The notes under the pieces: model-generated
Databases searched by the model: none
Told to the model about the DNA's origin: nothing
What the model saw: only the letters and a program-made list of their open reading frames with translations
Shown here: positions 17,261-31,724 of the stretch, in pieces
How the letters are laid out: every line of letters starts with the position of its first letter
Position numbering within the stretch: position 1 is the first letter of the stretch
Made by a program: the position numbers and the translations under genes
DNA from: Clostridia bacterium
GTDB lineage: Bacteria > Bacillota > Clostridia > Oscillospirales > Acutalibacteraceae
NCBI GenBank assembly: GCA_017430535.1
Contig: JAFRMR010000003.1
Location: forward strand, 124,001 to 188,000
Length of the DNA: 64,000 nt
Reading direction: 5' to 3'

Positions 17261-18628
17261 TTATACCTGAGGTAAAGTTTTTATGCTTTCCGCAAGTTCC
17301 TCATCGGTGGGAATATAATCATCCATAACGCCGTCGTTGAACTTTTCATAAGCAACCATATCAAAGTAGCCTGTACCGGTAAGGCCGAATACAATATTCT
17401 TTTCTTCGCCGGTTTCTTTGCACTTAAGAGCTTCATCAATGGCAACCCTGATAGCATGTGAGCTTTCGGGAGCGGGAAGAATACCCTCAACCCTTGCAAA
17501 CATTTCGGCTGCTTCGAACACCTTAGTCTGAGGAACTGCAACAGCTTCCATATATCCGTCATGATAAAGCTGAGATAATACAGTGCTCATACCGTGGAAT
17601 CTGAGACCGCCTGCATGGTTGGGCGCGGGAATATAGTTGCTGCCTATTGTGTACATCTTGGCAAGTGGGCAGATTCTGCCGGTATCGCAGAAATCATATG
17701 CAAAAGTGCCTCTTGTAAAGCTGGGGCAGGAAGCGGGCTCAACAGCAATAATTCTGTAATCATTCTCCCCTCTCAGCTTTTCACCCATAAAGGGAGCGAT
17801 AAGACCGCCGAGGTTTGAACCGCCGCCGGCACATCCGATAATTATGTCGGGCTTAACTCCATATTTATCAAGAGCGGTTTTGGTTTCAAGGCCTATTATG
17901 CTCTGATGCAGCAGCACCTGATTAAGAACAGAACCGAGAACATATCTGTAGCCCTCGTTCTTGGTTGCAACTTCAACCGCTTCGGAAATAGCGCATCCGA
18001 GAGAACCGGTGGTACCGGGATGCTCTTTAAGAATCGCTCTTCCTATTTCAGTTGTTTCAGAGGGAGAAGGAGTTACCGATGCACCGTAAGTTCTCATTAC
18101 TTCCCTTCTGAAAGGCTTCTGCTCATAAGATACTTTAACCATAAACACTTTAAGGTCAAGGCCGAGATATGCGCAGGCCATTGATAAAGCTGTACCCCAC
18201 TGACCGGCGCCTGTTTCTGTAGTGACGCCTTTAAGGCCCTGGTTCTTTGCATAATATGCCTGAGCTATTGCGGAATTAAGCTTATGGGAACCGCTGGTAT
18301 TGTTGCCTTCAAATTTATAATAGATTTTTGCGGGAGTGCCCAGTTTTTCTTCAAGGCAATAAGCTCTTACAAGAGGTGAAGGTCTGTACATCTTGTAAAA
18401 ATCTCTGATTTCCTGAGGAATTTCCACATAGGCGGTATCATTGTCAAGTTCTTGCTTTATAAGCTCTTCACAGAAAATAGGAGCAAGATCTTCAGCGGTC
18501 AGGGGCTGATGTGTGCCGGGGTTAAGAAGAGGAGCGGGCTTGGTTTTCATATCCGCCCTGACATTATACCAATACTTGGGTATCTCAGTTTCATCAAGAT
18601 AAATTTTGTAAGGGATTTTTTCTTTCAT
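17261..18628 (-). CDS. trpB: Tryptophan synthase beta chain, TrpB2 type
   Basis: 455 residues, longer than the classical TrpB (about 400) and typical of the TrpB2 group. It joins indole and serine to make tryptophan using PLP. The Schiff-base Lys is in NTSGSHKLNSA near residue 114, and the PLP phosphate loop is CAGGGSNLGG near residue 234. No trpA or other trp gene is in the window, so it may use free indole, as proposed for TrpB2 enzymes. It is preceded by a T-box leader with a tryptophan specifier. Confidence 0.92.
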   Translation of the reverse strand: MKEKIPYKIYLDETEIPKYWYNVRADMKTKPAPLLNPGTHQPLTAEDLAPIFCEELIKQELDNDTAYVEIPQEIRDFYKMYRPSPLVRAYCLEEKLGTPAKIYYKFEGNNTSGSHKLNSAIAQAYYAKNQGLKGVTTETGAGQWGTALSMACAYLGLDLKVFMVKVSYEQKPFRREVMRTYGASVTPSPSETTEIGRAILKEHPGTTGSLGCAISEAVEVATKNEGYRYVLGSVLNQVLLHQSIIGLETKTALDKYGVKPDIIIGCAGGGSNLGGLIAPFMGEKLRGENDYRIIAVEPASCPSFTRGTFAYDFCDTGRICPLAKMYTIGSNYIPAPNHAGGLRFHGMSTVLSQLYHDGYMEAVAVPQTKVFEAAEMFARVEGILPAPESSHAIRVAIDEALKCKETGEEKNIVFGLTGTGYFDMVAYEKFNDGVMDDYIPTDEELAESIKTLPQV

Positions 18629-18984: not shown

Positions 18985-20256
18985 TTATTTCAGGCCGAGA
19001 TCGGGATGCCTGGACGCAACAACGCCGAACGCATCCTCAGCAATATCAACAGCAAGAGCAATATCCTCTTCTGTTACAGATGCGTTAATAAAGTGATTAT
19101 GATGGGAAGCAAGGAACAGGCCTCTGCTTACGCACTCTGAAATCCACTCCTGATGAAGCATAAGGCTGTTATCATTTGCTATCCTCAGATAGAAGAGCGC
19201 GGGCTCGCCGCTTACTACAAGATCAAATCCGTGTTCCTTACCGGCGGCTTTAAAGCCCTCGGTAAGCTTGGTGCCGAGCTCTCTGAACATTACGGGAATA
19301 TTCAGCTTCTTCATCTTGGGGATACAGGCAAGGCAAGCTGCAAAAGGCTCTGCGCTCATCCAGTAAGAACCCGTATAAACAACAGATGAAGCTGTTGCTT
19401 TCATATGTTCGCCGCCGCAAACGGAAGACATATTATAACCGTTAGCGAGGGCTTTGCAGAAGCAGATAAGATCCGCTTTTATTCCGTAATAATGGTCTGA
19501 GCCGGCAATATCAAGCCTGAATCCGGTTCTTACATCATCAAAGATAAGAACCATTCCGTGATCGTCACAGAATTTGCGCACAGCTGCCCACTGCTCTTTG
19601 GTAGCACACTTGTTATCATAGAAATTACCGTGGTCATAGGGCTGAGCAATAAGGCCGGCAACATCGCCGCCGCAGGCATCATAAGCCTGCTGCATTGCAT
19701 CAAGATCAAACCAGGGAACAACAATATTGTTGCATACATCTTCGGGAGTAATACCGGGATAGTCGGCTTTCTGGGCCCACTGGAAATCACCGTGATAATA
19801 ACCTCTGAAGAACATCATTTTCTTTTTACCGGTATGGGCACGAGCGCACATTACGGAGAATGTTGTTGCATCTGAACCGTTCTTCATAAAGAAAGCCCAA
19901 TCTGCAGAAGCAACGGTATCAATAAGCATTTCAGCGCACTCAACCATCTTGTAGGAAGGAGAAGTAGTGCAGTTGCCTATCTTTAACTGCTCAATAGCAG
20001 CAGCATCAACATCATCGTCACAGTAGCCGAGAACATTGGGACCGTAAGCGCACATAAAGTCAAGGTATTTATTGCCGTCTACATCCCAGAAATAGGTTCC
20101 CTTAGCATGGTCGCCCAAAAGAGGCCATTTGGTTATGGGAAGGAACAAACCTTCTGAAGGACCGAGGTGGCCGTAAACGCCCGAAGGAATTGCATTAAGA
20201 GCGCGGCTGAACCATTCCTTGGATTTTTCATGTGTATATTCGGGATATTTACTCAT
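18985..20256 (-). CDS. Class III PLP aminotransferase (glutamate-1-semialdehyde aminomutase-like fold)
   Basis: 423 residues. The N-terminal region with FWDVDGNKYLDF, NGSDATTFS, the cofactor Asp in LIFDDVRTGFR and the PLP Lys in CFCKALANGYN (near residue 272) define a class III aminotransferase related to HemL. The usual Asp-Glu-Val is Asp-Asp-Val here. No other haem biosynthesis gene is nearby, and the protein is linked to an SCP2-like protein rather than to hem genes, so a true HemL role is unlikely. The amino donor and substrate cannot be read from the sequence. Confidence 0.85.
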   Translation of the reverse strand: MSKYPEYTHEKSKEWFSRALNAIPSGVYGHLGPSEGLFLPITKWPLLGDHAKGTYFWDVDGNKYLDFMCAYGPNVLGYCDDDVDAAAIEQLKIGNCTTSPSYKMVECAEMLIDTVASADWAFFMKNGSDATTFSVMCARAHTGKKKMMFFRGYYHGDFQWAQKADYPGITPEDVCNNIVVPWFDLDAMQQAYDACGGDVAGLIAQPYDHGNFYDNKCATKEQWAAVRKFCDDHGMVLIFDDVRTGFRLDIAGSDHYYGIKADLICFCKALANGYNMSSVCGGEHMKATASSVVYTGSYWMSAEPFAACLACIPKMKKLNIPVMFRELGTKLTEGFKAAGKEHGFDLVVSGEPALFYLRIANDNSLMLHQEWISECVSRGLFLASHHNHFINASVTEEDIALAVDIAEDAFGVVASRHPDLGLK

Positions 20257-20269
20257 TATTCTCTCCTCC

Positions 20270-21034
20270 TTAACCTAAGTATACAGCAACTCTGTCAAGA
20301 ATTCTGTTAACATTATCTATCATATTGCACATACCGCTCATATAGATATTTCCGGCGCAAAGTTCAGCCATAGTTGAAGCGGTACCGTTGAAAAGTCCGT
20401 TTGCAAGATCAATGGTCTTGAACTCCATAATAGCTCTGGGATTGGCAGCCTTTTCCTTCTTAAGGGTCAGGTAATGGTTGCGGGCACTAACGGTAACATA
20501 AACAACATCGGTAATGCCCATTGAAATATCACCATCGCATATATAAGAAGCCGAAAGCTTGCTGATGGAATCGTTATTGCCCAATGCGCAGATTGCGCCG
20601 GCAATAGTATAAAGGGTAAGGATTGTGGATTTTTCAAAGAATTCTCTGTTTTTAAGGTCCTCTTCTTTCGGCATAAGATATTTAGTTAGAATATCTGTAA
20701 GCTTGGTGAAAGGCCCAAGAAGGAATTTAAGCACCTGAGCAACACCTTTAACAGGAATGCCGGGTTTGGCATTATCAATTAAGTCATTGAACTTTTCAGG
20801 TGAAGAGAATATCATTTTGCAGGTGCATCCCTTGTCACCTTCGGTTAATTTACAGCCCTTATCCGAAAAATTAAGGGTGATGCAGGGACCGTTTTTTACG
20901 TCAAAGCAAAGAGAAACAGGGTCTTTCAATCCCTTGCATATTGCCTGTGCCTCGGAGTCAAGATCACAAAGATTCTCAAGCGTACCGAGAATACCATAGG
21001 CGTTGACGAATGCTAATGCTTTTGCTTCTTTCAA
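20270..21034 (-). CDS. SCP2-like small-molecule-binding protein (putative)
   Basis: 254 residues, starting at a TTG 7 bases after AGGAGG. Residues about 35-110 (SLCFDVKNG...CKMIFSSPEKFNDLI...PVKGVAQVLKFL) resemble the SCP2 sterol-carrier-like fold: a strand pair around a short ligand phrase, a helix, then a G-x-V-x-G-like turn. The C-terminal half is helical and unassigned. It is cotranscribed with the class III aminotransferase and may present or sense a hydrophobic or CoA-type ligand. The function is not established. Confidence 0.5.
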   Translation of the reverse strand: MKEAKALAFVNAYGILGTLENLCDLDSEAQAICKGLKDPVSLCFDVKNGPCITLNFSDKGCKLTEGDKGCTCKMIFSSPEKFNDLIDNAKPGIPVKGVAQVLKFLLGPFTKLTDILTKYLMPKEEDLKNREFFEKSTILTLYTIAGAICALGNNDSISKLSASYICDGDISMGITDVVYVTVSARNHYLTLKKEKAANPRAIMEFKTIDLANGLFNGTASTMAELCAGNIYMSGMCNMIDNVNRILDRVAVYLG

Positions 21035-21108: not shown

Positions 21109-22260
21109 TCAATTAAGATAATTGACAGATTTTACAATTTTTCCTTCTTTGAAATACACACGGGGTACTCTCCTGGCTACTCTGCAAGGCAACTCATAAT
21201 TAAAAGAATAAGCCATCTCAGATACTTCTTCCATAGTCAGAACAGCATCACCCATTGTTCCTACAAGAACAACTTCATCACCCACATTACAATCAATTCC
21301 GGTTACATCAACCATAAACTGATCCATACACACCCTGCCCAGAATAGGAGCAAAACAGCCGTTGATTATTACCCTGCCCCTGTTGGAAAGGCACCTTGGG
21401 TAGCCGTCTGCGTACCCCACAGGTATTGTAGCTACTTTTGTCGGCTTTTCGGTCTTGAATGTTCCTCCGTAAGAAATCTCTCTGCCCGGTTCCAGTATCT
21501 TCAGATGTGATATTTTTGTGTGCCAGCTCATAACAGGTTTAATATCGAGTAAAGATTTGTCAACTACCTCTGATGGATAGAGCCCGTAAGTTATTATACC
21601 CATACGGCACATATCAAAATAATCTGTAAAATTCATTATGCCGGCGCTGTTATTGAGATGTTTAACGGGAATAGAAATGCCTCTATCTTCAAGCATTCCG
21701 CAAAAAGCTTTATACTTTTCTCTCTGGGCTTCAGCTTTGCTTAAATCAAATTGATCGGCAGTTGCAAAATGAGAAAAAAGACCTTCTGCATATATACCGG
21801 GTAAAGCAGTGATTTCTTTGCATATATCAGCGCTCTCTTCGTTTACCTGAAAACCGATTCTGCTCATTCCCGTATCAATACAAAAATGAAACGGTACGGT
21901 TTTCCCCTGCTTAACCGCAGCAGCAGACAACGCCTTTGCATCTTCAATACCGAAAATGGGAATACGGATTTCATATTTTACAACCGTTTCATAATCCCAG
22001 GGAAACACTCTGCCGAGAATAAGAACGGGATTTTTTATTCCCGATTTCTTAAGTTCTACTGCCTCTTCAATACAGGCAACGCCGAAAAAATCACACTTAT
22101 CATCAAGAAATCTGCCGAGCTCAACTGCACCGTGACCGTAAGCATCGGCTTTGATAACAGCAAGAATTTTAACAGCAGCAGGCAGCTTATTCCTTACACT
22201 GTTGTAATTATATTCAACAGCATCAAGGTCAATAGCCGCGTAAGTTCTTAAATTTATCAT
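21109..22260 (-). CDS. alr: Alanine racemase
   Basis: 383 residues, PLP-dependent interconversion of L- and D-alanine. The cofactor Lys is in AVIKADAYGHGA near residue 38, the opposite-face catalytic Tyr is in ISYGGTF in the C-terminal domain, and RVCMDQFMVDVT is present. It overlaps pxpA by 4 bases and is the last gene of the D-amino-acid/5-oxoproline operon. A broader racemase specificity is possible but not visible. Confidence 0.93.
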   Translation of the reverse strand: MINLRTYAAIDLDAVEYNYNSVRNKLPAAVKILAVIKADAYGHGAVELGRFLDDKCDFFGVACIEEAVELKKSGIKNPVLILGRVFPWDYETVVKYEIRIPIFGIEDAKALSAAAVKQGKTVPFHFCIDTGMSRIGFQVNEESADICKEITALPGIYAEGLFSHFATADQFDLSKAEAQREKYKAFCGMLEDRGISIPVKHLNNSAGIMNFTDYFDMCRMGIITYGLYPSEVVDKSLLDIKPVMSWHTKISHLKILEPGREISYGGTFKTEKPTKVATIPVGYADGYPRCLSNRGRVIINGCFAPILGRVCMDQFMVDVTGIDCNVGDEVVLVGTMGDAVLTMEEVSEMAYSFNYELPCRVARRVPRVYFKEGKIVKSVNYLN

Positions 22261-23012
22261 TTTACAACCTCGGAAAGACTTGCAGTTTCAATTCCATTCA
22301 ATGCAAATTCTTCTCTTAATGCTTTTACAAAAGCAAGTGCTTTAGGGCCGTCACCGTGAACACATACGGAATGAGCTTCAATTGAAATATCCTCTCCGGT
22401 ATAAGCCCTGACTTTGCCTTCTCTTATCATCCTTATTACTCTTGCTTTAGCTTCATTTTCATCTGTTATCATAGAGCCCTCTTTGGTCCTGGCCCTGAGA
22501 GTGCCGTCGACTTCATAAGCCCTGTCCGCAAATATTTCACAAGCGTATTTCAGCCCGTATTTTTTTGCAGAATTAACCATCTCTGAGCCGGACAAAGCAA
22601 GAAAGATAAGGCTGCTGTCAAAATCATGAATTGCTTTGGCAATTGCATCGGCAAGGGCGGGATTTTTTGCAGCGGCATTATACATTGCGCCGTGAGGCTT
22701 AACATGCTGAAGCTTAACGCCCTGAGCACATGCAACAGCGGCAATAGCGCCAAGCTGGTACAAAGTGAAATTATATACCTGCTCAGGTGTAACATCCATA
22801 TTTGTACGCCCGAAGTTTTCTTTATCAGGATAACCCGGATGGGCTCCGAAAGCAGTGCCGTTATCCTTACAAAGCTTAACAGTCTCAGCAATAAGGTCAG
22901 AATCCCCTGCGTGAAAACCGCAGGCAATATTTGCACCTGTTATAAGAGGTATAATATCGGCATCAAAAAGTGCCCCTTCACCTAAATCGGAGTTCAGATC
23001 AATCTTATACAT
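22257..23012 (-). CDS. pxpA: 5-oxoprolinase subunit A (LamB/YcsF family)
   Basis: 251 residues, the normal size. DLNSDLGEG at the N-terminus and NIACGFHAGD near residue 30 are the YcsF signature. With PxpB and PxpC it forms the ATP-dependent bacterial 5-oxoprolinase that opens 5-oxo-L-proline to L-glutamate. The three subunit genes are in the same operon here, interrupted by a DUF1445 gene. Confidence 0.93.
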   Translation of the reverse strand: MYKIDLNSDLGEGALFDADIIPLITGANIACGFHAGDSDLIAETVKLCKDNGTAFGAHPGYPDKENFGRTNMDVTPEQVYNFTLYQLGAIAAVACAQGVKLQHVKPHGAMYNAAAKNPALADAIAKAIHDFDSSLIFLALSGSEMVNSAKKYGLKYACEIFADRAYEVDGTLRARTKEGSMITDENEAKARVIRMIREGKVRAYTGEDISIEAHSVCVHGDGPKALAFVKALREEFALNGIETASLSEVVK

Positions 23013-23023
23013 AAATAACCACC

Positions 23024-23809
23024 TCAGTACTTCAGGTTTGAATTTTTAACATCGGTAATAAACATGTGGCCGGGAGCATGGGTAATTGCAAAATAAGGCT
23101 TTGTTTGCATAAGCGCATTCTGAGGCGTCACTCCGCAGGCCCAGAAAACAGGTACTTCACCCTCATTTATTGTAACGGCATCCCCGTAATCCGGTTTGTT
23201 TATATCTTTAATTCCGATTGATTCCGGGCTGCCGATATGAACAGGTGCTCCGTGTACTCTCGGCATAGCGTTTGTAACATTAACTGCTTTAACAACAAGA
23301 TTTTCGGGAATCGGTCTCATTGAAACAACCATATTGCCGTGAAAAGCTCCGGCACTGTTAAGAACAATATTTGTATTGAACATGGGTACATTTCTGCCCA
23401 TTTCAATATGCCTTACGGGAATATCGGCCTCAATCATTTCACTTTCAAAGCTGAAAGAACAGCCTATAAGGAAATACACAAGATCATCTCGCCAGTAATC
23501 GGTAATATCGGTTACCTCTTTTTCAAGCACGCCGTTTTTCCATATCCGGTATTTCGGGAAATCAGTGCATATATCGCCGAACTCTGCCATTGATTTAATA
23601 CTCTTATCGCCGACATCGCCAACTTCAAGTATAGGACACGGCTTTGGATTTCTCATACAAAAAAGCAAAAAATCAAACGCATACTCAGCAGGCAGTATAC
23701 ACAGATTTGCCTGGGCATAACCGTCACACATTCCCGAGGTCTGAAAATCAACCTCCCCTGTGCGGATTAGTCTTTTTACTTCCTGGGGTTTCATTTTGGA
23801 ATAATCCAT
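23024..23809 (-). CDS. DUF1445/UPF0317 family hydro-lyase, N-terminal half of D-glutamate cyclase (YcsI-like)
   Basis: 261 residues from the ATG at 23809, which has AGGAG 5 bases upstream. The in-frame TTG at 23824 overlaps pxpC and lacks a box. The opening RTGEVDFQTSGMCDGYAQAN is the DUF1445 signature, and FLIGCSFSFE holds the conserved Cys/Ser core. In animals this domain is fused to DUF4392 to make DGLUCY, which converts D-glutamate to 5-oxo-D-proline. Here the DUF4392 protein is encoded two genes upstream in the same operon. Confidence 0.85.
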   Translation of the reverse strand: MDYSKMKPQEVKRLIRTGEVDFQTSGMCDGYAQANLCILPAEYAFDFLLFCMRNPKPCPILEVGDVGDKSIKSMAEFGDICTDFPKYRIWKNGVLEKEVTDITDYWRDDLVYFLIGCSFSFESEMIEADIPVRHIEMGRNVPMFNTNIVLNSAGAFHGNMVVSMRPIPENLVVKAVNVTNAMPRVHGAPVHIGSPESIGIKDINKPDYGDAVTINEGEVPVFWACGVTPQNALMQTKPYFAITHAPGHMFITDVKNSNLKY

Positions 23810-23810
23810 A

Positions 23811-24731
23811 CTAACTCCTCGCAAGTTTCTTAATATATTTTTTCTCTTTCAGGGCAAGCTTTTCAGCTTTTTTAACACTTATAAGCTTAAACTTAATCAT
23901 ATCATTCTGCTTAACCTGAGCTAGCCTTCCAAGGTCAACGGAAATTACATTTACAATTTTGGCGTATCCGCCGGCAGTCTGGTGATCTGCCATAAGGATT
24001 ATAGGCATACCGGAGCGCGCAATCTGAATTGAACCGAAACAAATACCGTCTGAAATAATATCCAGCCCGTCTTTGCCTTTAAGCGCAATACCGTTTAGCC
24101 TTATCCCCATTCTGTCAAGATAAGGGGTAACACAATATGTCTGGCTGAAAAAGAGCTTCTTATCCGTTTCTGTAAACATATCATACTGAGGCCCCTGAAC
24201 TACTCTGATTTCAACAGATTTTTCATAAGTCTCGCATTCAGTTTCTTTTTCAGAATTACACTCAGACGCTTTTCCTGTATTAAGTACATCTCCCCGCTTA
24301 AGAGCTCTGCCTTCATAACCGCCGAGATGAAGCTTGAGGTTTGTAGATGCGCTTCCCATAATTGGCGGAACATCAATTCCGCCGGAAACTGCAAGGTAAA
24401 TACGCATACCGTTTTTGCAGTTTGAAACAGTTAATACATCGCCGGCTTTTGCCGTAAAGCATTTATTATTTGAAATAGGCCGCCCGTTTAATGTGCTGTT
24501 GAATGTGCCTCCGCTCAGACAGAATCTGTGTTCATCGGTAAATTTAGCGGTAATACCGACCATGGTCATCTCAACAACCGGCGCATCGGGTGAATTGCCG
24601 CATATTATATTGGCAACCTGCATAGAGTGCCTGTCCATAGCGCCGCTTTGCGTGAAGCCGGTTTTCATAACACCGAATCTGCCGTAATCCTGAACGGTAG
24701 AAAGCATTCCGCCGTTAATAATCTCAATCAT
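23811..24731 (-). CDS. pxpC: 5-oxoprolinase subunit C (KipA/biotin-dependent carboxyltransferase-like)
   Basis: 306 residues. GMLSTVQDYGRFG at the N-terminus and the C-terminal HQTAGGYAKI motif are typical of the KipA/urea-amidolyase-related family. It forms a pair with PxpB; both resemble carboxyltransferase halves but are the B/C subunits of bacterial 5-oxoprolinase. It overlaps pxpB by 4 bases. Confidence 0.92.
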   Translation of the reverse strand: MIEIINGGMLSTVQDYGRFGVMKTGFTQSGAMDRHSMQVANIICGNSPDAPVVEMTMVGITAKFTDEHRFCLSGGTFNSTLNGRPISNNKCFTAKAGDVLTVSNCKNGMRIYLAVSGGIDVPPIMGSASTNLKLHLGGYEGRALKRGDVLNTGKASECNSEKETECETYEKSVEIRVVQGPQYDMFTETDKKLFFSQTYCVTPYLDRMGIRLNGIALKGKDGLDIISDGICFGSIQIARSGMPIILMADHQTAGGYAKIVNVISVDLGRLAQVKQNDMIKFKLISVKKAEKLALKEKKYIKKLARS

Positions 24732-25453
24732 ATTTCGGACTCCCTGCTTTTAACTTGAAATGTGCCGGCATTTATCTCTGCTTCAATACTGTCATACTCT
24801 TGTTCGGAAATACTGTAGAACTTAATATAGTCTCCGGCCTTATACAGAATAGGCGATTCTCTGCCGGGGTCAAAAACTTTAACAGGAGTTTTGCCTATAA
24901 GCTGCCATCCTCCCGGGGAGGCAATGGGATATATACCGGTCTGCTCGCCGCCTATACCAACAGCCCCCTGAAAAATCTCAGTACGCGGATTGCTGAGCCT
25001 TGGAGTAAACAGTTTTTCGCTCATTCCGCCAAGGTAAGCAAATCCCGGCAAAAAACCGAGCATATAAATAAGATAAGGCTCCGACGTATGCAGGGCAATT
25101 ATTTCTTCCTCGCTGAGCCCGGTATGGTTAATGACATTATCCATATCAAGGGCATACTTTCTGCTGTAACAAACGGGAATATCCCATATAACAGAAACGG
25201 AAGAATCATTTGCCTTAATGCTGCTTCCCAGAGCCGTAATAATCTTTTTAAGTTTTGATGAAGAGATAACCGTACAGTCATAGAGCACCGTAAGTGAGCA
25301 AAATGCAGGTATCAATTCAATAACGCCGGAAATCTGCCTGTCAGTAACCGCTTTTTCAAGGGCAACAACACAGGCATTGATTTCCTTGCTTATCTTCTTT
25401 TCAAACTGTACTGTCAGGGCAGAATCGCCGCTTTGCAAAATCTGAAAGTTCAT
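24728..25453 (-). CDS. pxpB: 5-oxoprolinase subunit B (KipI-like)
   Basis: 241 residues. The C-terminal block LGFLPGFAYLGG followed by PRLSNPRTEIFQGAVGIGG and PGGWQLIG is the KipI/PxpB signature. It acts with PxpC and PxpA in opening 5-oxoproline. In Bacillus the homologue also inhibits the KinA sporulation kinase, but the operon here points to the enzymatic role. It shares a base with the end of the DUF4392 gene. Confidence 0.93.
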   Translation of the reverse strand: MNFQILQSGDSALTVQFEKKISKEINACVVALEKAVTDRQISGVIELIPAFCSLTVLYDCTVISSSKLKKIITALGSSIKANDSSVSVIWDIPVCYSRKYALDMDNVINHTGLSEEEIIALHTSEPYLIYMLGFLPGFAYLGGMSEKLFTPRLSNPRTEIFQGAVGIGGEQTGIYPIASPGGWQLIGKTPVKVFDPGRESPILYKAGDYIKFYSISEQEYDSIEAEINAGTFQVKSRESEI

Positions 25454-26511
25454 CAGTTAAAGAATCCTTTATCAAGTGTTTTTTCAAACCATTTTTCAGT
25501 TTTATCCGCAACTGTAGGCGGATATTCGATAAGACTCTTCATAAGCGATATCATAGGCAGCACTATATTTTTGCCTATCCCGTCAATATACGGCCTTGCT
25601 TCGCCGTACATATCAAGCATGCCTGCTTCGGCAGCCGCATCCATCACTGCAGACTGAACATCTTTGCTGTGGAACAATGATGTATCGCCAAGCATAAATG
25701 CAGCGGCCGCCATAATGGCGTTACAGCCCCAATCGGAAACCGTAGCGGTAAGAATATTATCGGCTTTGGAATCAACAACAATTCCGTAACCTGTACCGGC
25801 GCGGCATCCCCCTTCTTCTGCGTAAGGAATATACTTTCTGATATGCGGCTCAATTGCGCCCATACCTATTTCATTGCCCAGATCACCGATAGAAAGATTA
25901 TAGATGCCGAGTTTTTTACATTTTTCAAATAATACATCGTACTTCGGTTCTATATCGGTTGTATTTAGTCCGGTGGCATTATGATAAATGCCGTTTTTAT
26001 TCCTGCCGGGAGCTTCATTTGTAAAGCAAACGCAGGGCAAGCCGTGGGATAAAATATCATCGGCCTGTTTTTCAGCCTGTGAATCATCAACTGTAAATGA
26101 AATTGCGCAAACAGTATTCTGTGCATCGGAGTCAATATCTTCGGTGTAACCGATTCCGAGCACGGGGCACATAGCTTTAATTGCCTTTAAGCACTGCTCC
26201 GGTACTATCATTACCGGTTTTGCATTAAAAGCTTTTATTACAAAACTTGCAAAAACGGTTGAAGATATAATACCATCCGTTTCAGCTTCGTTCCACGGCG
26301 GAAGAACAAAGCCGGTAAGTATAAAAACTTTTTTACCCGGCTTTAAATTCTCAACAAGACCGCGGGCCGCATGAACAGATAGAGGTTCCCCTGTAAACTT
26401 CCTTGCCCCGGAATACAGAATACGGCACACGCCGTAACCTCTGGGATCCAGATTCATAAGTGTATCAAGATTATCGCCGAGATTAAGTAAAGTAAGTTCT
26501 TTTTTATCCAT
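25453..26511 (-). CDS. DUF4392 protein, C-terminal half of D-glutamate cyclase
   Basis: 352 residues. GVCRILYSGARKFTGEPLS, ILTGFVLPPWNEAETDG and IGDLGNEIGMG match the DUF4392 domain, which makes up the C-terminal part of the animal mitochondrial D-glutamate cyclase DGLUCY. It sits in the same operon as the DUF1445 protein, so the two probably form a split version of that enzyme. It lies 18 bases after the aminotransferase gene. Confidence 0.85.
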   Translation of the reverse strand: MDKKELTLLNLGDNLDTLMNLDPRGYGVCRILYSGARKFTGEPLSVHAARGLVENLKPGKKVFILTGFVLPPWNEAETDGIISSTVFASFVIKAFNAKPVMIVPEQCLKAIKAMCPVLGIGYTEDIDSDAQNTVCAISFTVDDSQAEKQADDILSHGLPCVCFTNEAPGRNKNGIYHNATGLNTTDIEPKYDVLFEKCKKLGIYNLSIGDLGNEIGMGAIEPHIRKYIPYAEEGGCRAGTGYGIVVDSKADNILTATVSDWGCNAIMAAAAFMLGDTSLFHSKDVQSAVMDAAAEAGMLDMYGEARPYIDGIGKNIVLPMISLMKSLIEYPPTVADKTEKWFEKTLDKGFFN

Positions 26512-26529
26512 TTTGCACCTGCTTATTTA

Positions 26530-27375
26530 TCAGTCAGCTTTGCACTGCTCTTCAAAGTCCTTTACAAGAGCATCCTGTATTGTTTTAAGCATTTCGGGCG
26601 CTTTTCCGCCTACAGGTTTGCCGTCAACATGCTTAACGGGAATACAGAACGAACCGGTTGAATGAATAACAACTTCATCTGCATTAAACAGCTCATCAAG
26701 AGTATAGTCTCTCTCCTCTGTTTCAAAGCCCAGTTTTTCAGCAAAAGCAAGAAGTCTGATTCTTGCCGTGCCGGGCAGAACCTTATCATCAAGGGGATGG
26801 GTAATCACTTTACCATCCTTGAATATGGAAACATTTGAGTGAGCGCATTCGGTTACAATGTCCCCTCTGTGGAATATAGCTTCGTGGCAGCCTGCGCGGC
26901 TTGCAGCGGTTGCAGCAAGCACCGATGGGATAAGGTTAAGAGTTTTACAGTTACAATAGAAAAATCTCTTATCCTCAAATGTTATTACATCAATGGGTTT
27001 ATATGTATCCTGAACAGCGCAGGGGGTTAAAGTAATCCAAAGGTTACCTACACTGTTTTCAGGGTAAGCGTGCTCTCTTAACCCGCTGCCCCTTGTGCAC
27101 TGCATATATACAAACTGATCGCCGTCATCAACTTTCAGAACAAGCTCTTTAAGCAGCTCAGCAAGTTCATCCTTGGCAATGGGAATGTTTATATCCAGTA
27201 TTCTGGCGCTGTTATAAAATCTTCTCAGGTGATTTTCAATATCAAAAATTTTATGATTATGAGCATAGGTAGCATCATAAATGCCGTCGCCGTACCAGCA
27301 GACTCTGTCGAGCATGGGGATTGACATTTTTTCAATTTCATCATATTTGCCGTTGTAGTAGCCTAAATTTTGCAT
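26530..27375 (-). CDS. Class IV aminotransferase, D-amino-acid aminotransferase type
   Basis: 281 residues. The start DRVCWYGDGIYDATY corresponds to the DRG-x-x-FGDGVYE motif, and the Schiff-base Lys is in CKTLNLIPSVLA near residue 145. TRGSGLREHAYPE carries the R-x-H-x-(F/Y)P pattern that positions the carboxylate in D-amino-acid aminotransferases and is missing from branched-chain enzymes. This makes a D-Ala + 2-oxoglutarate to pyruvate + D-Glu reaction the best guess. It is the first gene of the seven-gene operon, with AGGAGTGA before its ATG. Confidence 0.85.
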   Translation of the reverse strand: MQNLGYYNGKYDEIEKMSIPMLDRVCWYGDGIYDATYAHNHKIFDIENHLRRFYNSARILDINIPIAKDELAELLKELVLKVDDGDQFVYMQCTRGSGLREHAYPENSVGNLWITLTPCAVQDTYKPIDVITFEDKRFFYCNCKTLNLIPSVLAATAASRAGCHEAIFHRGDIVTECAHSNVSIFKDGKVITHPLDDKVLPGTARIRLLAFAEKLGFETEERDYTLDELFNADEVVIHSTGSFCIPVKHVDGKPVGGKAPEMLKTIQDALVKDFEEQCKAD

Positions 27376-27410: not shown

Positions 27411-27439
27411 ATTTTAATACTAAAAAAGTAAATTGTAAA
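27411..27439 (-). promoter_or_regulatory. Promoter of the D-amino-acid/5-oxoproline operon
   Basis: Minus strand TTTACA (27434-27439), 17 bases, TAAAAT (27411-27416), 35 bases upstream of the aminotransferase start. No terminator is visible between the genes down to alr. Confidence 0.65.
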
Positions 27440-27454
27440 GTACTGTATTGCAAA

Positions 27455-29908
27455 TTATTTTACCGTACCTTCAAGAAAATCGGTTTCAAGCGCATAACCG
27501 TTTTCATCAATTCTGAATGTTTTTATTTCAAACGGCCTGAAATCAGCGTAAAAACCTGCATTTATGATATTGCAAACAACAGAAACCTTAACGGATTTAC
27601 CCGCAGTTTCGGCAAGACGGATTATATAGCCGGCACCGCCGTCTTCACATTTTTTAAAAGCCATAAGCCTGATATTATCTTTATCAATGTGAATAAATGA
27701 TGTTCTCCGGCTGAATTCACCTTTATGATAACCTGCGGGAACAGTCACCGGCTTATTGTTAAGTAAATCGGCATAGTACTGAACCCTGCTGTTTTCAATA
27801 TTACCTGCGTGGGGATAAACAGCATATTCAAACCTCTGAAGACCTTCATCACAGTATTCAAAATCCGCATCGGGCCTGTCAGAATAGTGATCCGCAAAAA
27901 TGGAATTCCTGACAGCAGTCATTCTGAGGGTATTGCCTTTGCAATCATAACTGTACTTTGCATCCGATATAACAGAAACACCGCAATCCCCTGCCGTGAC
28001 ATCTGCCCAGGTAAGCGCAGGTTCTTCATAACCGTTGCATTTTCTGTAAATGAATCCGCCGGGTATTTCGTAGGCCGCCTGAGGGTTATCTCCCTGCACA
28101 GAAACAGGTAATTTAACAATCGTAAGAGGTTCCTGCCAGAGAATACGGACCTTGCTCCTGATTACTTCGGATTCAGATTCAAGAATATAATCCTGCGATA
28201 TATAGGAATTTTTATATCTGTGTTTAACTCTTACTACTGCCCTTACCCCTGATCTTTCAACAACTTTAACAGAATCAAGATCGGCATCGGAAATAACCTT
28301 ATCAAATTTAAAAACATTATGTGCCCAGGTATCCGTAGCGGAATCATCAATAATCTGCGGTACAAATGATACACGGGACAGATGCTCTCTGTTATCCGCT
28401 TTATTTATGATTGAAGCTATACCACCGGTTTTTTCATCAAATGTTACTTTAAGGTACCTGTTTTCAATTGTAAGACCATTAACGGAAATATCGGAAGAAT
28501 TAACCGTGACTTCATCTGAATCTGTCAGGTTCCAGAGCCAATAAACAGAATACCCGAGGGGCGGTAAATCGGCATAAAAAACAGTATCAAGGTGAGAATC
28601 GTTTGATCGGGATGATCTGACATTGCTGAATACTGTATCATTCCCGTCGCAATCCGTTACCCTGCGGGATGGATGATATACCCTCACCGCAGTTCTTACC
28701 GGGTAAGAAAGCGGATTAAAAACCGCAACCGGCTTGGGAAATTCCGGATTATTGCAGTAATGCCTCTCGTTAAAAGACACCGAATCTGAAACGCCGTCAA
28801 TCCATGTATCAATTTTATCCGTTATTCTCAGCAAAGCATCCGTCCGGGCTTTTCCGGCAAAAGCAGTTGCAGAACTCATTTCCGCAAAAGCATCATCATA
28901 TGCCTCACGGATACTGCAGCCGCAAAGAATATCGTGAAACTGATTATAGCAGACATTTAACCAGGCGTTTTTAAACCCGGCTGTATTTCCGGCAGAAAGA
29001 CCAAGGGCATCGGAAACGGTATTCCATTTCTCGGCGTTTGTAAGCGCATTTTCAGCTTTTCTGTTTAATTGTTTTATTCTTGAAGTTGCAGAATAACATC
29101 CGCTGGCGTGGTGCTGCATTTCTTCTGACCAGGCAGGTATATCCAAAGGCCGGTTAAGTACTTCTCTGAAATACTCATCAGGCGAAGAAAAACGGATGCT
29201 ATCATCCTTTGAAATAATACTTTTCAAGTATTCGATATCGCCTTTTGTAGGTCCGCCGCCGTGATTGCCGACACCGTAAAACAGCATTGATGAGCAATCA
29301 TTTTTTTCGGACAATTCTCTAATAGTATTAAGAGACCTGTTTATATCATCTATACCGTTTGCGGCATAAGTATCGGGAATATGAAAAACAAGTACCCTTG
29401 AGCCATCGGGAGAATCCCACCAGAATAAGCCCTGCGGAATATCTCCGTTCTCATTTTTATTCGGTCTCATCATCACATAACAATCCATACCGCTTTTCTT
29501 TACAAACTGCGGTATCATTGCGCAGTGGCCGAAAGAATCAACATTATAACCGGTTTTGCAAATAATGCCGAACTTTTCGTAATAATAAAGCTGGCTGTAA
29601 AGGGCCTGCCTTGCAAAACTTTCCGCCGAGGGCATATTACAGTCCGGTTGAACCCACCATCCGTTAACCGGAACCCATCTTCCTTCGGCAACATATTTCT
29701 TTATTTCTTCAAAAAGCTCAGGTTTCAGTTCTTCAACCCACATATAATAGCAGGCAGATGAACATGTAAAAACGAAACCGTCATATTCTTTCAGCCTGTC
29801 TGCAGCCGACTGAAAAGTCTGCAGCACTTCCGCGCATCCCTCCTGCTTTTTCCAGAGCCAGGTAGGGTCAAGATGCGCATTACCGATAAGGTGAATTTTA
29901 TTATCCAT
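27455..29908 (-). CDS. GH38 alpha-mannosidase
   Basis: 817 residues from the ATG at 29908, which has GGAG 7 bases upstream; an in-frame start at 29932 overlaps the preceding gene. HLIGNAHLDPTWLW at the N-terminus carries the zinc ligands His and Asp, and GYNVDSFGH near residue 122 holds the nucleophile Asp. The four-helix and beta-sandwich domains follow. No signal peptide is seen, so it would trim alpha-mannosides in the cytoplasm. It is cotranscribed with the 599-residue gene upstream (16-base gap). Confidence 0.92.
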   Translation of the reverse strand: MDNKIHLIGNAHLDPTWLWKKQEGCAEVLQTFQSAADRLKEYDGFVFTCSSACYYMWVEELKPELFEEIKKYVAEGRWVPVNGWWVQPDCNMPSAESFARQALYSQLYYYEKFGIICKTGYNVDSFGHCAMIPQFVKKSGMDCYVMMRPNKNENGDIPQGLFWWDSPDGSRVLVFHIPDTYAANGIDDINRSLNTIRELSEKNDCSSMLFYGVGNHGGGPTKGDIEYLKSIISKDDSIRFSSPDEYFREVLNRPLDIPAWSEEMQHHASGCYSATSRIKQLNRKAENALTNAEKWNTVSDALGLSAGNTAGFKNAWLNVCYNQFHDILCGCSIREAYDDAFAEMSSATAFAGKARTDALLRITDKIDTWIDGVSDSVSFNERHYCNNPEFPKPVAVFNPLSYPVRTAVRVYHPSRRVTDCDGNDTVFSNVRSSRSNDSHLDTVFYADLPPLGYSVYWLWNLTDSDEVTVNSSDISVNGLTIENRYLKVTFDEKTGGIASIINKADNREHLSRVSFVPQIIDDSATDTWAHNVFKFDKVISDADLDSVKVVERSGVRAVVRVKHRYKNSYISQDYILESESEVIRSKVRILWQEPLTIVKLPVSVQGDNPQAAYEIPGGFIYRKCNGYEEPALTWADVTAGDCGVSVISDAKYSYDCKGNTLRMTAVRNSIFADHYSDRPDADFEYCDEGLQRFEYAVYPHAGNIENSRVQYYADLLNNKPVTVPAGYHKGEFSRRTSFIHIDKDNIRLMAFKKCEDGGAGYIIRLAETAGKSVKVSVVCNIINAGFYADFRPFEIKTFRIDENGYALETDFLEGTVK

Positions 29909-29924
29909 AATTTTCTCCGTAAGT

Positions 29925-31724
29925 CTATTCAATAAATCCGAAATAGCGGCCTATCCAGTAAGCAAAAGTATATACAAAACAGCTTTCAACGCACATATTA
30001 CCGCCGGAGTCAACATTTGTATATCTCAGCGGATCCCTGTCATATTTTGAGATGAATCTTTCGTCGGGAGGAAGCAAAACAGAAATCTGATTATAATTAT
30101 CTCTCAGTTCTTTAACCGCCACATCGTGCCTGCCGATAAGCGACACCCCGGATGCAAGCCTGCTGAGATTAAAGCGCAAAAACCACTCCCGTATTCTTTC
30201 CATATCAATATCATCGTCGGGATTTGCAAGCGCATAAAGGAAATCATAACCGGGATTGTGCTCAGGGCCTATTGACGAGCGCCAGGCTTCATATCCTTTA
30301 CGGTATTTTCTAAGCAGCTTTTCATCTTTTTCCATTGTGCAAAGGCCGAAAAATGAGCAGGTTGCAAGCATATGATCACCGTACATAATTTCTGACTGAT
30401 AATCAACGCCCAAAGCAAGGCACATCTGGTAAAGGCGGTCAAAATGCTTTTCGGTTAAATCGGCGTAACCGTGTTCATTTATAAGCGACTCATAGGTCTG
30501 AAGCCATTTACCCTTTTCTCCGGTAATCTCCATAACGGTTTTAAGATAAAACAATATTTCTGCGGCATTAAGCGGTGCATCTGCCCAGCCCTCAACCTGA
30601 CCGTTAAAATAGTCATTATCCCATCTGGCCCATGTTGTGGGACCGCCGTGAAAATCCTTCAGAACAAAACCGTTATCAATTATATGGTTTACAATTCCCT
30701 TTACAGATTCTTTTATCAGATTATCAAGTTCCGGCTCATCTTCTGTAAGATACTTATGAGCAAAAAGGCAATTCAGCAGCTGAATTGTAACCTCATCACT
30801 GCTTGTATCAGCTTTATAAATAATATCATCAAGTGTTTTTCCTTTATCCTCATAAAGGTATCTCAACCTTTCGGGTACTTCAGCCGAGCAGTCGGAAACC
30901 GCTCCCACAACGCCCTTTTCAACTGATTCGGAATTAGCAACACATACCGCTTTATTACCCTGACGCTTAAAGAAAAATCCGTCATCGGGTACAGGTTCAC
31001 CGTCAAACAAATATGTTCTCGCTATAAAGCCGTCTCCCCTGCCGTGAATATACATAAGCAGCAGGCAGGCCTCAAGGGCTTTTACCGCAACAGCTTTTGC
31101 TTCTCTTGTCTTTTCTGATTCAGTCCCGAATTCTTTTTTGTAACAGGCATATCTCATTATCTCTGCAATTGAAAACAGAGCAGTAAAGCCGCCGTCATTA
31201 TCTGAATTTGCATGTGGAAGCGCAGTATCAAGCTCACCGGCTTTTGCAAGGTATCTCTGGCTCACCATACCCTGGCGCTCAACTATGCTTAAGGTTTCAT
31301 CAAGCAGTTTTGCTGCAACATCCTCCGGGGAAAGCATAACCATTTCAATATGAGTTATGCCCGTTTCCGTAAGAACCCAGGCACCTTCTCCATCAGCAGC
31401 AACAGCCTTTACATTATTATCAGGCAAATCCCTGTCGGCAGAAAAATACATTACTCTGTCAAAATCAAATTCTGCATCCGGATCAATTCTTGTTACGCCG
31501 CAATCTGAGCCAAGCCACAAAACACCGTTATCCGATTTATCACAGCAGCAATATCTGCTTTTTTCACAGGGAAGCGGAAAAGGAAAATCCGAAAGATCAG
31601 GTACATTATTCACGGTATTGAAAATCTTTTCCGGCGCAACGCCCTTCTCAATACTATAAAATATGCTCTGCCTGTACAGATGTTTATTCAGTGTTATTTT
31701 TTTCAAAATATCATTCCTTATCAT
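29925..31724 (-). CDS. Unrecognised 599-aa protein with a beta-propeller-like segment and a helical domain
   Basis: I cannot place this protein in a family. Residues about 55-130 contain two propeller-type blades: GVLWLGSDCGVTRIDP, then NNVKAVAADGEGAWVLTETGITHI, similar to the sensor repeats of hybrid two-component systems. The remaining 460 residues are mostly helical, rich in aromatic and acidic residues (HGGPTTWARWDNDYFNG, SSIGPEHNPGYDFLYALANP), and could be an alpha/alpha barrel as in several glycoside hydrolases. No signal peptide. The ATG at 31724 has a weak box; a TTG at 31706 with AAGGA 8 bases upstream is an alternative. Its place in front of a GH38 gene suggests a role in the same glycan. 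Confidence 0.6.
   Translation of the reverse strand: MIRNDILKKITLNKHLYRQSIFYSIEKGVAPEKIFNTVNNVPDLSDFPFPLPCEKSRYCCCDKSDNGVLWLGSDCGVTRIDPDAEFDFDRVMYFSADRDLPDNNVKAVAADGEGAWVLTETGITHIEMVMLSPEDVAAKLLDETLSIVERQGMVSQRYLAKAGELDTALPHANSDNDGGFTALFSIAEIMRYACYKKEFGTESEKTREAKAVAVKALEACLLLMYIHGRGDGFIARTYLFDGEPVPDDGFFFKRQGNKAVCVANSESVEKGVVGAVSDCSAEVPERLRYLYEDKGKTLDDIIYKADTSSDEVTIQLLNCLFAHKYLTEDEPELDNLIKESVKGIVNHIIDNGFVLKDFHGGPTTWARWDNDYFNGQVEGWADAPLNAAEILFYLKTVMEITGEKGKWLQTYESLINEHGYADLTEKHFDRLYQMCLALGVDYQSEIMYGDHMLATCSFFGLCTMEKDEKLLRKYRKGYEAWRSSIGPEHNPGYDFLYALANPDDDIDMERIREWFLRFNLSRLASGVSLIGRHDVAVKELRDNYNQISVLLPPDERFISKYDRDPLRYTNVDSGGNMCVESCFVYTFAYWIGRYFGFIE

Follow-up and report, generated by a model that had tools for sequence, protein, structure and literature searches.

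A conserved clostridial operon proposed to supply D-glutamate and to dispose of it through 5-oxoproline

Why would a bacterium encode an aminotransferase of the D-amino-acid transaminase type, homologs of both domains of the animal D-glutamate cyclase, the three subunits of 5-oxoprolinase, and an alanine racemase in one operon? The question is raised by seven adjacent genes in a 64,000-nucleotide stretch of a Clostridia bacterium contig (JAFRMR010000003.1, positions 124,001 to 188,000), hereafter called the window, for which an earlier note had proposed a D-glutamate (D-Glu) salvage or peptidoglycan turnover route. We propose, at a probability of about one-half, that these genes form a D-Glu homeostasis operon, in which alanine racemase (Alr) and the aminotransferase (Dat) would carry out synthesis, and the DUF4392 protein, an inversion step, and 5-oxoprolinase (PxpABC) would carry out disposal.

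Organization and conservation of the operon

The seven genes run on the minus strand from position 27375 to position 21109 in the order Dat, DUF4392, PxpB, PxpC, DUF1445, PxpA, and Alr, with intergenic gaps of 18, -1, -4, 1, 11, and -4 bases in the direction of transcription. Coordinates and Pfam and NCBIfam matches (Table 1) agree with the earlier note on the shared strand, on the overlaps and short gaps, and on the gene order. PxpA and PxpB exceed the curated cutoffs of their models (NF003814 and TIGR00370), and PxpC exceeds the cutoff of the broader TIGR00724 but falls below that of the PxpC equivalog NF045499 (267 bits versus 500). No NCBIfam model matched DUF4392. The DUF1445 gene has an ATG start at position 23809, and its longest reading frame opens at a TTG at position 23824.

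Table 1. Operon genes and the promoter-like site upstream of them, with coordinates in the window
Feature	Position	Strand	Evidence
Dat, class IV (fold IV) aminotransferase, D-amino-acid transaminase type, first operon gene	26530..27375	-	PF01063 (Aminotran_4) 2.5e-41
DUF4392 / GLUCM-like_C, proposed Mn-dependent D-glutamate cyclase, long type, 352 amino acids	25453..26511	-	PF14336 7.1e-84
PxpB, 5-oxoprolinase subunit	24728..25453	-	PF02682 (CT_C_D) 9.2e-71; TIGR00370 209.8 bits, cutoff 145.55
PxpC-like carboxyltransferase-family subunit	23811..24731	-	PF02626 (CT_A_B) 7.6e-91; TIGR00724 318.7 bits, cutoff 230.2
DUF1445 / UPF0317, NCBIfam "putative hydro-lyase"	23024..23809	-	PF07286 (D-Glu_cyclase) 1.7e-69; NF003969 422.9 bits, cutoff 324
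PxpA, 5-oxoprolinase subunit	22257..23012	-	PF03746 (LamB_YcsF) 1.5e-91; NF003814 318.4 bits, cutoff 226
Alr, alanine racemase	21109..22260	-	Ala_racemase_N 1.2e-64, Ala_racemase_C 5.8e-47; TIGR00492 361 bits, cutoff 168
Promoter-like site before Dat: TTTACA, 17 bases, TAAAAT	27411..27439	-	Sequence scan, weak alone

A contig scan with the long-type DUF4392 protein gave 247 relatives, of which the best 80 were kept; genes at these loci were mapped by tblastn with the window's proteins, and the resulting counts describe the nearest 80 of 247. At 73 loci Dat was recovered, in each case immediately preceding DUF4392 among the mapped genes and, at 71 of the 73, within 300 bases of it. The other genes were recovered at 76 (PxpB), 73 (PxpC), 67 (DUF1445), 62 (PxpA), and 47 (Alr) loci, and all seven lay on one strand at 43. 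At 27 loci, mapped genes lay no more than 600 bases from the beginning of the retrieved stretch or no more than 1200 bases from its end; the remaining 53 include 37 with all seven genes and 10 lacking only Alr. Two gene orders account for the complete sets: Dat-DUF4392-PxpB-PxpC-DUF1445-PxpA-Alr, as in the window (33 sets), and the Clostridium-type order, Dat-DUF4392-DUF1445-PxpA-Alr-PxpB-PxpC (10 sets, e.g., L086, C. tyrobutyricum). Record titles place the loci in Clostridia or other Bacillota, with one titled only "uncultured bacterium." Carriers of the operon include many Clostridia of both gut and environmental origin.

Among 13 further loci with a DUF4392 match from genomes of the class, four had Dat, DUF4392, and PxpABC, one had DUF1445-DUF4392-PxpABC, seven had a shorter DUF4392 without these neighbors, and one, a weak match, had nothing. 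Among 13 loci from the window's own family, all seven genes were present in four, an operon cut by a contig end in two, only Dat-DUF4392 in one, DUF4392-Alr in one, a lone short DUF4392 in four, and nothing in one (again a weak match). Some of these loci belong to genomes already represented among the 80, as identical proteins in L018/L086 and L119/L094 indicate. The earlier note had proposed a search for co-occurrence of DUF1445, DUF4392, PxpABC, and a D-aminotransferase across Clostridia. For the first two, across 391 class genomes, DUF4392 exceeded the cutoff in 13 genomes and DUF1445 in 23, with 12 genomes shared (Fisher P = 7.6e-16, uncorrected for relatedness). Because the set recurs at the 80 loci and DUF4392 and DUF1445 share 12 class genomes, the seven-gene association is far beyond chance.

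In a PxpBC tree of 39 chosen rows (16 of the main type, 13 of the Clostridium type, 9 with PxpABC but without DUF4392, and L023), the main-type and Clostridium-type sequences formed separate clades. We do not claim that the two gene orders acquired PxpBC independently, as a single common clade was not rejected (p-AU = 0.28).

Two additional gene types recur near the operon, one member per cluster having been identified by Pfam. Genes for a biotin carrier protein and biotin carboxylase follow PxpC at 5 of the 80 loci (L062, L067, L069, L072, and L086), all Clostridium-type operons, and the same pairing occurs with PxpA, DUF1445, and PxpBC-type genes on a Lactiplantibacillus plasmid (L174), which suggests a biotin-linked form of the lactamase. 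A regulator of the Lrp/AsnC type lies near the operon, nearly always upstream and on the same strand, at 13 loci (L056, L057, L059, L062, L064, L065, L067, L069, L078, L086, L098, L101, and L105).

Active-site residues of Dat, DUF4392, and DUF1445

The best Protein Data Bank (PDB) matches of Dat are D-amino acid aminotransferases (3lqs/1daa, 4e-46). The R-x-H-x-YP motif on which the D-specific assignment had been based is present (R100 and H102), and its arginine and histidine are kept in all 83 aligned Dat rows (80 distinct), as are Y33, A35, Y90-x-Q92, K144, and E176. The canonical bsDAAT type is described as having a carboxylate trap of Y31, R98, and H100 and a motif of F26, V or A at position 33, K, R, P, or T at position 35, xYxQ, and RxH (passages of PMC10003956). 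All 83 rows carry the trap residues, A at position 33, YxQ, and RxH; canonical position 26 is F in 77 rows and Y in 6, including the window's Dat, and position 35 departs from the canonical type, being Y in 76 of 83 rows and K, R, P, or T in none. Since Dat scores 214.4 bits against the D-amino-acid transaminase equivalog TIGR01121, below its cutoff of 277.45, we file it only as D-transaminase-like.

DUF4392 is homologous to TON_0340 of Thermococcus (PDB 4dwz, 4fc5, and 5gl2), whose metal ligands are Glu59, Asp61, Glu115, Asp157, Glu161, and Asp246 (structural passages of PMC5132392). These six acidic residues align with E77, D79, E166, D210, E214, and D310 of the window's protein and are invariant in all 90 aligned rows (88 distinct).

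DUF1445, with PDB matches 3db9 and 2pif, has three cysteines (C58, C117, and C225) that are invariant in 90 of 90 aligned rows (89 distinct), a set that includes 15 of the 17 stretches (L151 to L167) taken for DUF1445 outside Dat operons. Cofactor-independent racemases are known in which a pair of active-site cysteines flanks the substrate from opposite sides; by analogy, the invariant cysteines of DUF1445 would allow a cysteine-based mechanism.

Distribution of DUF1445 relative to DUF4392

The mouse protein that contains DUF1445 and DUF4392 is a D-Glu cyclase (PMC5339696, in part), and the earlier note had taken the two window proteins as the two domains of this animal enzyme, DGLUCY. Both domains do exceed their Pfam cutoffs; they are encoded by separate genes rather than as one fused chain, and they need not be halves of one cyclase. 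In the class sample, 11 of the 23 genomes with DUF1445 lack DUF4392 over the cutoff, and PxpB/PxpC lies within ~4 kb of DUF1445 in 7 of these 11; the stretch around DUF1445 in the other 4 contains no Pxp gene. Six class genomes carry DUF1445 and a short DUF4392 apart from each other, with DUF1445 accompanied by PxpABC in L162 and L163 but not in the stretches L164 to L167. A Nramp-type protein follows PxpA in two DUF1445 loci read gene by gene, L154 (by Pfam) and L160 (by eye). As annotated, Lactiplantibacillus and Rhizobium plasmids (2 of 33 matching records) carry DUF1445 with PxpA, Nramp, carboxyltransferase-family, and biotin-carboxylase genes, and the Bacillus subtilis control genome matched PF07286 (DUF1445) but not DUF4392. 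In animals, DUF4392 is described in vertebrates and invertebrates, whereas DUF1445 is described in vertebrates only (Ariyoshi et al., PMC5339696, in the passages on distribution).

Because DUF1445 keeps company with PxpB/PxpC in genomes without DUF4392, it may act on the 5-oxoproline side, and the distribution as a whole suggests that DUF4392 would act on D-Glu and DUF1445 on 5-oxoproline. PxpABC is described as opening 5-oxo-L-proline (passages of PMC13274462); therefore, the chain would be completed by a racemase acting on 5-oxoproline.

The stretches L151, L155, L156, L157, and L164 to L167 carry DUF1445 but no Pxp gene, and an amidohydrolase gene adjoins DUF1445 in L164.

Probable sources of D-alanine and D-glutamate

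The window's own assembly (2.41 Mb, 96.9% complete) has one DUF4392 gene. No match to the MurI model TIGR00067 was found in it at an E value of ≤0.001, and the same model matches 10 of 14 control genomes. MurD is present, the single alanine racemase match is the operon's Alr, and of the two class IV aminotransferases, the second is of the branched-chain type (IlvE-II). Among the families searched, with DapF and aminotransferases of other folds outside the search, the operon's Alr and Dat are the only recognizable source of D-alanine (D-Ala) and D-Glu in this genome. As MurI was undetected, MurD is present, and Alr and a D-type aminotransferase were found only in the operon, the operon is probably a source of D-Ala and D-Glu here as well as a disposal route.

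Within the same genus, one genome (G405) has MurI but neither Dat nor DUF4392, and another (G529) lacks all three. Across 150 family genomes, MurI over the cutoff was found in 2 of 13 DUF4392 carriers versus 103 of 137 others (P = 3.2e-5), and the difference held for carriers of Dat (E value of ≤1e-30; 4 of 12 versus 101 of 138 others, P = 0.007), for carriers of Dat beside DUF4392 (2 of 8 versus 103 of 142 others, P = 0.009), and for carriers of the long-type DUF4392 (2 of 9, P = 0.003). One further genome (G173) has the operon and lacks MurI. In 13 genomes searched for Alr, the single gene over the cutoff lies within the operon in 6 (G000, G393, G398, G458, G494, and G173), beside DUF4392 in G432, and ~8 kb away in G436; it is on another contig in G422 and G528, where the operons are cut by contig ends. 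A second Alr is present in G168 and G336, and G243 has two, neither in the operon. The association between the operon and an absent MurI is suggestive but not general.

A related gene cluster in Pseudoalteromonas

The five Pseudoalteromonas records that matched, all of them viewed, have genes for a GH3 glycosidase, DUF1445, PxpA, DUF4392, and Dat in one run; for one of them (L185), PxpA is not listed and a gap of PxpA size lies in an incomplete gene table. In the two records scored, the GH3 protein is closest to the NCBIfam beta-N-acetylhexosaminidase model, just under its cutoff (190.9 and 181.5 versus 207); we take this model to represent NagZ. In the three records that were aligned, identities to the window proteins are 29 to 31% for Dat, 22 to 23% for DUF4392, 49 to 53% for DUF1445, and 35 to 38% for PxpA, and the six metal ligands, the RxH of Dat, and the three cysteines of DUF1445 are all kept. 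Beyond the run, one record encodes an MFS transporter, a GntR regulator, and an M20 dipeptidase. This cluster thus has the same four-enzyme core in a different phylum, with distant sequences and a linked NagZ-like glycosidase, which supports the view that Dat, DUF4392, DUF1445, and PxpA may form a functional unit, perhaps tied to muropeptide recycling.

Proposed role and competing explanations

In the proposed homeostasis operon, Alr would make D-Ala, and Dat would move its amino group onto 2-oxoglutarate, yielding D-Glu for the wall in a genome where MurI was undetected. Surplus or recycled D-Glu would be cyclized to 5-oxo-D-proline by DUF4392, with metal ions held by its six acidic residues; the configuration at C-alpha would be inverted, most plausibly by DUF1445; and PxpABC would open 5-oxo-L-proline to L-glutamate (L-Glu). 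Since ATP is consumed in the PxpABC reaction, disposal would proceed in one direction only, and D-Glu could be kept low without a reversible glutamate racemase. We infer each enzyme activity, the direction of flow, and the identity of the inverting protein, whereas gene content, order, and conservation, the conserved active-site residues, and the presence or absence of genes are direct observations. The chain drawn in the earlier note, from L-alanine through D-Ala, D-Glu, and 5-oxoproline to L-Glu, agrees with the layout of the operon and with its conservation as a complete set, but it was incomplete in overlooking the synthetic role.

A bolder version can be put forward only tentatively, and as a whole we consider it unlikely. 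DUF1445 would be a cofactor-independent cysteine racemase of 5-oxoproline; DUF4392, DUF1445, and PxpABC would together constitute an ATP-driven, one-way inverter of D-Glu to L-Glu that, with Alr and Dat, frees some Clostridia from glutamate racemase; and part of this logic would have arisen separately in Gammaproteobacteria for muropeptide recycling.

Several observations weigh against the homeostasis proposal. The missing ~3% of the window's assembly is a caveat on the absence of MurI, and the statistics for MurI treat related genomes as independent. When weak TIGR00067 matches are counted, the association vanishes (9 of 13 versus 107 of 137, P = 0.49); three of the seven carriers with only weak matches were scanned, and their proteins proved to be of the cysteate/aspartate-racemase type, which may themselves be a source of D-Glu in such genomes. 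The operon, whole or cut, occurs together with MurI in five genomes (G168, G336, G243, G393, and G422, the last with its operon cut by a contig end), so replacement of MurI is not general. Moreover, 33 of the 150 family genomes have neither MurI, Dat, nor DUF4392 over the cutoff, and therefore other D-Glu sources exist; DapF is reported to serve as one in Chlamydia (PMC5885031).

The chemistry and the distant homologs raise further points on the same side. The mouse protein gives 5-oxo-D-proline, and inversion is not among the results reported in the relevant passages (PMC5339696). TON_0340 is described as a weak Mn-dependent phosphatase (PMC5132392, in part). In Pseudoalteromonas, H replaces Q92 of the canonical motif in Dat, and the stretches viewed, to which the search was limited, list no PxpB, PxpC, or Alr. 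Six further proteobacterial records that were viewed (of 65 and 59 matches) show DUF4392 in unrelated contexts. The family is broad, and the DUF4392 name is no proof of D-Glu cyclase activity.

A possible, if less favored, explanation is that the operon serves purely for salvage or catabolism of D-amino acids from peptidoglycan turnover: Dat would gather amino groups from D-Ala and other D-amino acids on 2-oxoglutarate as D-Glu, which would then be cyclized and opened to L-Glu, with Alr feeding or draining D-Ala. The NagZ-like GH3 gene adjoining the core in five of five Pseudoalteromonas records fits this idea, even though its score is just under the beta-N-acetylhexosaminidase cutoff, as does the M20 dipeptidase gene slightly farther along in one of these records. 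The coexistence of the operon with MurI in the Clostridium-type genomes G168 and G336 and the Lrp/AsnC-type regulators near 13 of the 80 operons point in the same direction. Transporters speak less for salvage: among the 22 largest neighbor clusters, named mostly by eye, each clear transporter family occurs within 5 kb at 7 or fewer of the 80 loci, the exception being a mixed cluster of ABC-type ATPases at 33. What also tells against salvage as the sole function is the window's own genome, where Alr and the D-type aminotransferase are single copy and MurI was undetected, so that these two enzymes should be biosynthetic too unless D-Glu is imported or otherwise made.

It is improbable, in our view, that PxpABC of these operons accepts the D form directly and that DUF1445 is no more than an accessory cyclase half, the arrangement of animal DGLUCY. 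The fusion of DUF1445 and DUF4392 in higher eukaryotes (passages of PMC5132392) and the presence of DUF1445 in 12 of the 13 class genomes with DUF4392 speak for this explanation, as do the score of PxpC below its equivalog cutoff and the separate clade of main-type PxpBC among the 39 chosen rows. However, DUF1445 occurs with PxpABC but without DUF4392 in other Clostridia (beside a Nramp-type gene in two) and, as annotated, on the Lactiplantibacillus plasmid, B. subtilis matches DUF1445 but not DUF4392, and the described substrate of PxpABC is the L form (PMC13274462, in part).

Synthesis through the ring, with DUF1445 and DUF4392 running in reverse from 5-oxoproline to D-Glu and PxpABC trimming the L form, is very unlikely, even though none of the four short-type DUF4392 carriers in the family sample has MurI over the cutoff (one, G401, is 79% complete, and another, G431, has Dat elsewhere). 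Lactam opening without ATP is unfavorable, Dat and Alr would already supply D-Glu, and six of the seven short-type carriers in the class sample do have MurI (the seventh, G364, is 77% complete), which also leaves low odds for DUF4392 as a direct substitute for MurI. In addition, the mouse enzyme was shown running toward the lactam (passages of PMC5339696).

Comparison with known systems

Animal DGLUCY (C14orf159/9030617O03Rik), which converts D-Glu to 5-oxo-D-proline (PMC5339696, in part), has the same two domains; the window instead encodes two separate predicted proteins in an operon with 5-oxoprolinase, a D-aminotransferase, and an alanine racemase. A split cyclase in gut bacteria is already on record: a preprint (PMC11580864) gives a GLUCM_HUMAN row with "0" and "6," which we take as no full-length and six split gut homologs with near-adjacent genes, and its passages on split GLUCM describe neither the content of an operon nor a pathway and draw no connection to Dat, PxpABC, or Alr. 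The B. subtilis operon pxpA-ycsG-ycsI-pxpB-pxpC (ycsFGI-kipIA) joins PxpA, PxpB, and PxpC with YcsI (passages of PMC10448178). In contrast to the window, B. subtilis lacks DUF4392, and neither Dat nor Alr is named as part of its operon, whereas the window's operon has no counterpart of the Nramp-family ycsG; YcsI itself is presumably the B. subtilis DUF1445 protein.

MurI-independent supply of D-Glu by a D-amino-acid transaminase is known, an example being the S. aureus ΔmurI Δdat strain (PMC9963018), and the window's genome likewise has Alr and Dat with MurI undetected; here the two genes share an operon with a likely route for D-Glu disposal. TON_0340 shares all six metal ligands with the window's DUF4392 but differs from the proposed cyclase in that no lactam or amino acid substrate is reported for it in the passages on its activity (PMC5132392).

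We found no description of the seven-gene operon or of a 5-oxoproline racemase in titles and abstracts of the open-license literature among the matches listed, a scope outside which papers on B. subtilis 5-oxoprolinase and C. difficile Pxp fall, so that a prior description there is possible. Within the literature searched, the parts are known, and their union, its conservation, and the proposed role of DUF1445 appear to be new.

If the proposal is correct, both halves of the animal D-Glu cyclase would have a bacterial role, the widespread "putative hydro-lyase" DUF1445 would have a proposed substrate, and the stereochemical gap between D-Glu and 5-oxoprolinase would be filled. It would also point to a way in which some Clostridia regulate wall D-Glu in the absence of MurI, which is a recognized antibacterial target. 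In mammals, D-Glu from the gut flora is one source of this amino acid, and 5-oxo-D-proline is an excreted product (passages of PMC5339696).

Regulatory signals, neighboring genes, and minor observations

The promoter-like site before Dat was one of 21 sites in the region, versus 18.6 expected by chance, and its TTTAC is kept in six of seven aligned upstream regions. Terminator-like sites were about as frequent as expected by chance. No Rfam match was found in or adjoining the operon, and five tRNAs lie elsewhere in the window.

Other contexts of DUF4392 were seen in proteobacterial records. Two DUF4392 genes surround an annotated selenocysteine synthase gene in Sinorhizobium and Paraburkholderia (L178, 4857-8310, and L179, 4917-8304), and in L180 (4899-6649) an aspartate/glutamate racemase-family gene comes directly after DUF4392, with UbiD and an ABC transporter encoded nearby. 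Another record has DUF4392 adjoining arylmalonate decarboxylase, and L182 has a "putative hydro-lyase" gene ~4 kb from DUF4392. Among the 33 family genomes with neither MurI, Dat, nor DUF4392 over the cutoff, some are incomplete or have a fragmented MurI.

Three neighboring genes were considered as operon members and rejected. The gene at 20270-21034 (254 residues, no Pfam or NCBIfam match) was matched by tblastn (1e-8) at none of the 80 loci, and the glutamate-1-semialdehyde-aminomutase-like aminotransferase gene at 18985-20256 was matched at one (L073); the two lie 13 bases apart and are probably a separate pair. The upstream alpha-mannosidase gene at 27455-29932 was dropped as functionally unrelated. 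Between this GH38 alpha-mannosidase gene and a GH28 gene, positions 29925-31724 encode a 599-residue protein without a Pfam match, and a TrpB-like pyridoxal phosphate enzyme (NCBIfam TrpB-like) is encoded near the operon at 17261-18628.

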